Source of the DNA: Psychromonas antarctica
GTDB taxonomy: Bacteria; Pseudomonadota; Gammaproteobacteria; Enterobacterales; Psychromonadaceae
DNA: 64,000 nt
NCBI RefSeq assembly: GCF_022267535.1
Contig: NZ_JAHNZV010000001.1
Location: 62,001 to 126,000 of the forward strand
Direction: 5' to 3'
The position numbers and the translations under genes were made by a program. Below, one piece after another: positions 58,486 to 59,621 of the stretch. The notes beneath the pieces were generated by a model that saw nothing but the letters and a program-made list of their open reading frames with translations, was not told the DNA's origin and did no database searches. Positions within the stretch are counted from its first letter, which is position 1. Each line of letters opens with the position of its first letter.

Positions 58486-59621
58486 GTGGCGCCTACTTTA
58501 TTGTATCAAGCTGACTTAGCAAAACCCAATTTCTTTGCCGATCCGGCTCAAGCTGCGGCAATTGAGCATGTGCAACGTTTATATGAACAATTACAAGCAC
58601 TGCAGTCGGCCGCGCCGCAAAAGAAGCATTTCGCTTATTTTGTGCAAAAAATGTTAAATAAGAAAGAAAAAAAACGCGTTTAACTGGTTTGTATTTTTAT
58701 GGTGGTGTTGGCCGCGGAAAAACTTATTTAATGGATCTTTTTTTTCATAGTCTAACGACTGAGCGCAAGTTACGCCTGCATTTTAATCATTTTATGTTAA
58801 GAGTACATCAACAACTCGCTTTGTTGGAGGGGCAAATAAACCCTCTCCAGCAGATTGCTAAAATGTTTGCAGCTGAAACAGATTTACTGTGCTTCGATGA
58901 GTTTTATGTGGATGATATTGCTGATGCAATGATAATTGCGGGCATATTAACTGCACTTTTTGATGAAGGGGTGATATTGGTTGCGACATCTAATAGCCAC
59001 CCTGAGGACCTGTATCGAAATGGACTGCAACGGGCTCGTTTTCTACCTGCTATTGAGCTGCTCAAAAATCATTGTGATATTGTCCACCTGGATGGGCAGA
59101 GCGATTATCGATTACACCGTTTAATTAAAACTGAGATTTATCATTACCCGTTAAGTAATGAGGCTAGCACTCGTATTGAAATAAGTTTTGAAAGCTTAGC
59201 GCAAGGTGAGCGAATATACGGTCAGGAAATTGCTATCAATCAACGGCAAATGAAAACCATAGCGTTCAGCGCCGATTCATTACTAATAGAGTTTTCAACA
59301 CTCTGTGGAGACCCTAGAAGTGTCGTCGATTATATTGCTATCGCGATTTTATATCGCACCATTTTTTTGGTGAATATCAAACAGATGGATGATGCAGAAA
59401 ATGATCGGGTGCGGCGTTTTGTTGTTATGGTTGACGAATTTTATGAGCGCCATGTGGTGTTGATTATTTCTGCTGAAGTGGAAATCCAACAACTTTACAG
59501 GGGCAATAAACTCAGTTTTGAATTTAAACGCTGTGTTTCTCGCTTACTGGAGATGCAGAGTCAAGCCTATCTACAAAAAGTCGAACATATAGGCGCAAAT
59601 CAGCTTAACAGCCTGCCGTGA
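58486..59621 (+). CDS. zapE: Cell division ATPase ZapE, reading frame interrupted at an A8 tract
   Basis: Codes for an AFG1-type ATPase (YhcM) that acts on the FtsZ ring. From GTG 58486 the N-terminal part VAPTLLYQADLAKPNFFADPAQAAA reads to a TAA at 58681-58683. The rest, LTGLYFYGGVGRGKTYLMDLFF ... LCFDEFYVDDIADAM ... FYERHVVLIISAEVE ... CVSRLLEMQSQAYL, lies in the frame one base back. The change must fall near eight A at 58667-58674, inside GAAAAAAAAC. Walker A and B are intact downstream. It may be a real mutation, a read error, or slippage; see findings. Confidence 0.8.

Follow-up and report, generated by a model that had tools for sequence, protein, structure and literature searches.

The gene dnaX carries a known -1 frameshift site, an A-rich heptamer that is read as X_XXY_YYZ (PMC3711429, PMC5009743). 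In tssM1 of Citrobacter rodentium, an early stop codon lies near a poly-A tract of 11 A's, synthesis of the full-length product needs a change of frame, and slippage at the tract has been measured (PMC4256274). The singleton frame transitions collected with GeneTack are described as conserved genes that are split in one genome at a poly-A join and remain intact in the relatives (PMC3711429). Here, we describe a frame change in the cell-division gene zapE of the marine bacterium Psychromonas antarctica, which is located in a stretch of 64,000 nucleotides that was analyzed as a whole and is referred to as the window. The frame is broken at a run of eight A's, and the break is seen in one lineage only, the relatives that were read being intact.

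The two pieces of zapE and their join

The zapE gene (AFG1_ATPase) encompasses positions 58486–59621 of the window on the plus strand, and is flanked by degQ on one side and by rplM-rpsI on the other. The source genome is a draft of 3,916,717 bases in 300 contigs, and the frame break was read from the assembled sequence. The N-terminal part (58486–58683, plus strand) is an open reading frame of 65 codons plus TAA that matches positions 1–58 of the 361 positions of the Pfam AFG1_ATPase profile, and the N-terminal parts of the relatives align with it. Translation likely starts at the GTG codon, as judged by eye from the V-T-P-L start of the relatives. The last codons of this frame, GAA (58666), AAA, AAA, CGC and GTT, followed by the TAA stop (58681–58683), include the A8 run that constitutes the frame join (58667–58674, plus strand). 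The -1 frame is open for 319 codons (58662–59621, plus strand; stop at 59619–59621), comprises the end of the linker and the AAA+ core, and matches positions 64–360 of the Pfam profile. The core carries a Walker A (GGVGRGKT) and a Walker B (CFDEF) motif, which are named as in a description of ZapE (PMC8503651), and displays no further frame break.

In the NCBIfam ZapE profile (344 positions), the first piece covers positions 2–47 with 22 bits, under a cut-off of 140 that is set for the whole protein, and the second piece covers positions 55–344 with 377 bits. In both profiles, the two pieces thus follow one another in the expected order and almost without a gap, which identifies zapE as one gene in two frames. 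A single continuous reading frame is absent, and no second copy was found in the source genome, where the core gives one match. The initial annotation had claimed an N-terminal part ending at this TAA codon with the ATPase in the -1 frame, and the reading frames and profiles agree with it. The same annotation had placed the join at GAA AAA AAA C with an in-frame A_AAA_AAA, and this heptamer is indeed found in frame at positions 58668–58674.

A T8 run within the core (58738–58745, plus strand) has the same frame on both sides; slippage of the Escherichia coli RNA polymerase of up to 10% has been reported for T8 (PMC6260861). Concerning the neighboring degQ, the gene of the nearest relative, a MAG, appears to lie in two open frames that match positions 3–108 and 169–442 of 446 (G001:C103:11219-12347). 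In a one-contig genome, all that remains of degQ next to zapE is a stop-containing match of 43 residues to its end (G005:C1:3558686-3558814).

zapE and dnaX across the genus

Matches to the zapE core were obtained in 22 of the 23 other congeneric genomes, the remaining genome (G004, 79% complete) giving none. No other strain of the same species is among the compared genomes. For the reading by motif, the core frame was followed back from Walker A as a stop-free frame through the linker and the N-terminal part. In all 21 genomes read in this way, codon by codon, the N-terminal part and the core lie in the same frame, and they likewise share one frame in the zapE gene that was missed by the motif (L025). 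Seven of the 22 matches were flagged with internal stops; because the reading frame from Walker A stays open for 296 to 299 residues until it terminates, the flagged stops sit at the far end of these matches. A scan of viral contigs revealed no relative.

Comparison of the A count in sister genomes, which had been proposed in the initial annotation, revealed that, within the 90 bases that precede Walker A, the longest run of A's varies from 3 to 8 across the 21 genomes with the frame kept in each of them. A runs are, therefore, readily gained and lost in the zapE linker. An in-frame A_AAA_AA[A/G] is present in the linker of four of these 21 genomes, none of which has a frame break. When the -1 step is counted, the linker of the window equals that of P. 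ossibalaenae (L005) in length, as judged by eye.

The presence of a slippery heptamer in frame is what a programmed -1 frameshift would require, by which the ratio of short to full-length ZapE could be set. The string itself has little weight, since two of the three possible phases of any A8 run place A_AAA_AAA in frame, and 91 such in-frame heptamers, overlapping ones being counted apart, are found in the genome sample (464,179 bases in predicted coding state, both strands). No stable structure was detected 3' of the A8 run (fold z of -0.09, 0.14, 0.19 and -0.09 with pseudoknot-free folding), and no Shine-Dalgarno-like stimulator was observed by eye upstream of it. No Rfam family matched in the window, and the promoter and terminator scan gave nothing informative. 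As judged by titles, no published work was found on ZapE and frameshifting or on programmed frameshifting in Psychromonas. Given the single frame of zapE in the relatives that were read, the lack of conservation of the A run and the failure to detect a stimulator, programmed frameshifting is unsupported, and we consider it hardly credible at this locus.

The dnaX gene of the same genus, by contrast, does show the conservation of a programmed site. All 22 loci read, including that of the window's own genome (L115:2922-2973; relatives' loci L118–L140), contain A_AAA_AAG in frame and, 1 to 9 codons further, a stop in the -1 frame; this is likely a working frameshift site. These 22 loci belong to a set of 23 full ones, of which one (L139) was not read by two motifs; a further genome (G012) has no full dnaX match. 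In the own genome, an 8-bp stem starts six bases past the heptamer, with a z value of -1.89 and 7 of 200 shuffles as good, for a segment picked after the site was seen. A segment too far downstream has a z value of 1.61, and one at an earlier A8 run of dnaX a value of 0.65. The stem is weak support, and the conservation of the site is the stronger control. The earlier A8 run, at codon 435, shares its phase with the A8 run of zapE and is found in none of the other loci (22 read), implying that such runs arise by chance.

In one of the dnaX loci (L122, from G022), the frame ends at about 522 codons versus 713 to 869 in the other 21 loci. Either this gene is shorter or it represents a further frame break.

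Full-length product and state of the core

A real break could still be accompanied by useful rescue if enough full-length ZapE were produced by ribosomes slipping to -1 on A_AAA_AAA or by RNA polymerase slipping on the A8 run. The phase and the direction of the heptamer are both right for it, a seven-A A_AAA_AAA cassette is reported to give 10% in E. coli (PMC3711429), and slippage on its 11 A's rescues tssM1 of C. rodentium at about 20% (PMC4256274). On the other hand, heptamers without a stimulator are reported to reach at most about ten times a background of 0.055% (PMC4066793), and A_AAA_AAA is described as far less shift-prone than A_AAA_AAG (PMC5009743); the lack of a structure 3' of the run points in the same direction. 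Slippage of the E. coli RNA polymerase was reported as undetected below eight A's, with hardly any signal on poly(A), and the eight A's of zapE are at the limit of the run lengths on which slippage of this polymerase was observed (PMC6260861). At nine bases, selection against A or T runs is reported to be commonly evident (PMC1088944).

By analogy with these published E. coli data, incidental low-level slippage at the A8 run of zapE is plausible. Slippage that provides enough ZapE is an improbable outcome, and we give similarly little credence to a naturally frame-broken ZapE that would be kept in use by leaky A8 slippage, with a small full-length fraction and a core under selection. E. coli is viable without zapE and has a modest division defect (PMC8503651), so that neither a loss of ZapE nor a trace amount of product would be surprising.

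Translation might also restart after the stop. A ribosome that stops at the TAA codon (58681–58683) would reinitiate at TTG 58689, which lies directly past it, to produce an N-terminally shortened core that retains Walker A. By eye, this TTG is not preceded by a Shine-Dalgarno-like sequence and the next ATG is located past Walker A, and a restart of this kind is very unlikely.

The core is open and constrained. Compared with L004 over 310 codons, it has a dN of 0.175 and a pS of 0.684, and a dS of approximately 1.8 that is near saturation. The FastTree branch of the zapE core is 0.321 for the window and 0.116 for L004; for degQ, the respective values are 0.311 and 0.153, with a partial L004 comparator (290 residues) and with L068 left out because its reading frame was not found by motif. 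The branch of the window is thus long in degQ as well, and the fast evolution of zapE is mostly a property of the lineage. The window differs at five core columns that are invariant in the 28 other sequences and ties with the intact L024 for the most private changes, the other 27 sequences having 0 to 2. These five changes could reflect slightly relaxed constraint or simply the length of the branch.

The core is without visible decay. The earlier statement that both halves look well kept is thus borne out for the core by the dN and dS values; it does not, however, discriminate between explanations, as a recent indel, an assembly error and a leaky rescue fit alike. The constraint on the core counts in favor of useful rescue and also of an assembly error.

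Origin of the break and comparison with known systems

Frame breaks were surveyed with a codon-usage HMM in the window and further stretches, 546,281 bases in all, or about 14% of the 3.9 Mb genome. The HMM marked 107 frame changes (77 + 30), all of which were read individually and nearly all of which correspond to ordinary neighboring genes. At least four genes in this sample lie in two frames, namely zapE and those for a GNAT acetyltransferase, the sodium:solute symporter putP and a glycerophosphodiesterase. In the GNAT gene (L048 near 12435, minus strand), both pieces match five single-frame relatives. The break of putP (L062 near 4627) is located near the gene start, and its pieces match positions 1–28, under the cut-off, and 34–229 of the 406 positions of Pfam SSF. 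The first piece of the glycerophosphodiesterase gene (L050 near 5769) matches positions 1–70 of Pfam GDPD, and the second piece is open for 228 codons here, its counterparts in two relatives lying in open frames of 415 and 411 codons. None of these three breaks is at a long A run. Frame breaks are thus no rarity in this genome, whether they are real or made by the assembly. In a control, the HMM recovered 44 of 48 simulated deletions, a sensitivity that applies to long genes and to detection as an HMM change only. A second junction score, which is weak for short overlaps, puts zapE at about the 25th place of the 107.

A or T runs of at least eight bases with coding state 30 bases on either side keep the frame in 40 of 46 cases; of the other six, zapE is one and the remaining five coincide, by eye, with gene boundaries. 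The assembly is, therefore, not generally wrong at long runs. The frames of mutS and mutL are open, and there is consequently no sign of a mutator that would favor slippage at runs.

These results bear on whether the length of the A run is an assembly or sequencing error, with zapE intact in the organism. Such an error would be in line with a draft in 300 contigs, with a conserved gene broken in a single genome, with the four or more frame breaks in the surveyed 546,281 bases, and with the expectation of the GeneTack authors that BLAST-validated singletons are sequencing errors (PMC3711429). The behavior of long runs elsewhere, in frame or at gene boundaries, argues against it, as does the position of the GNAT, putP and glycerophosphodiesterase breaks away from long A runs. 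We regard an error as a substantial possibility that falls short of an even chance.

The best explanation, which we hold with about even confidence, is a recent one-base slippage indel in the A run of zapE. Recently and in this one lineage, replication slippage would have altered by one base the length of an A run that encodes lysines and lies in the linker, a fast-changing segment joining the N-terminal arm to the AAA+ core. Most translation would then end at the TAA codon with a peptide of approximately 65 residues that lacks the ATPase; some -1 slippage at the A8 run is likely to leak through and need not be functional. We infer that the cells themselves carry the change, which would have arisen recently and would leave little full-length ZapE. 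A recent indel is supported by the single frame of zapE in the 21 genomes and L025 with variable linker A runs, by long runs that are mostly in frame, at least three other broken genes and a core without a second break, and by the viability of E. coli without zapE (PMC8503651). It is weakened by the several breaks in one 300-contig draft, which could be errors too, by a core without the decay that would prove loss of function, and by the lack of a mutator sign with mutS and mutL open. In our ranking, a recent indel is most likely and an assembly error comes next, leaky rescue is possible and programmed frameshifting is unlikely. Of the slippage, programmed frameshifting and mutation left open by the initial annotation, mutation (or an assembly error) provides the best fit; the programmed alternative is disfavored by the one-frame relatives, the unconserved run and the missing stimulator.

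For annotation, the locus should be flagged as a frame-disrupted zapE, neither as two genes nor as a recoding site, and its significance past annotation is little. If leaky rescue were true, zapE would be one more natural case in which slippage keeps a gene through an indel. The comparison with dnaX provides a cheap test for recoding claims, based on conservation of the site within the genus and on a stimulator. With dnaX, zapE shares an A-rich heptamer of the same reading pattern; unlike that of zapE, the dnaX site is A_AAA_AAG and shows conservation across the genus, and a shift at dnaX leads to a shorter product whereas a shift at zapE leads to the full-length one. With tssM1, zapE shares the early stop near poly-A and a full-length product that depends on a frame change, but it has 8 rather than 11 A's and was recognized in sequence, whereas slippage in tssM1 was measured (PMC4256274). 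The closest fit is the GeneTack singleton class (PMC3711429), from which no difference was shown. The frame break of zapE, at an A run and in a single genome, is thus regarded as ordinary.
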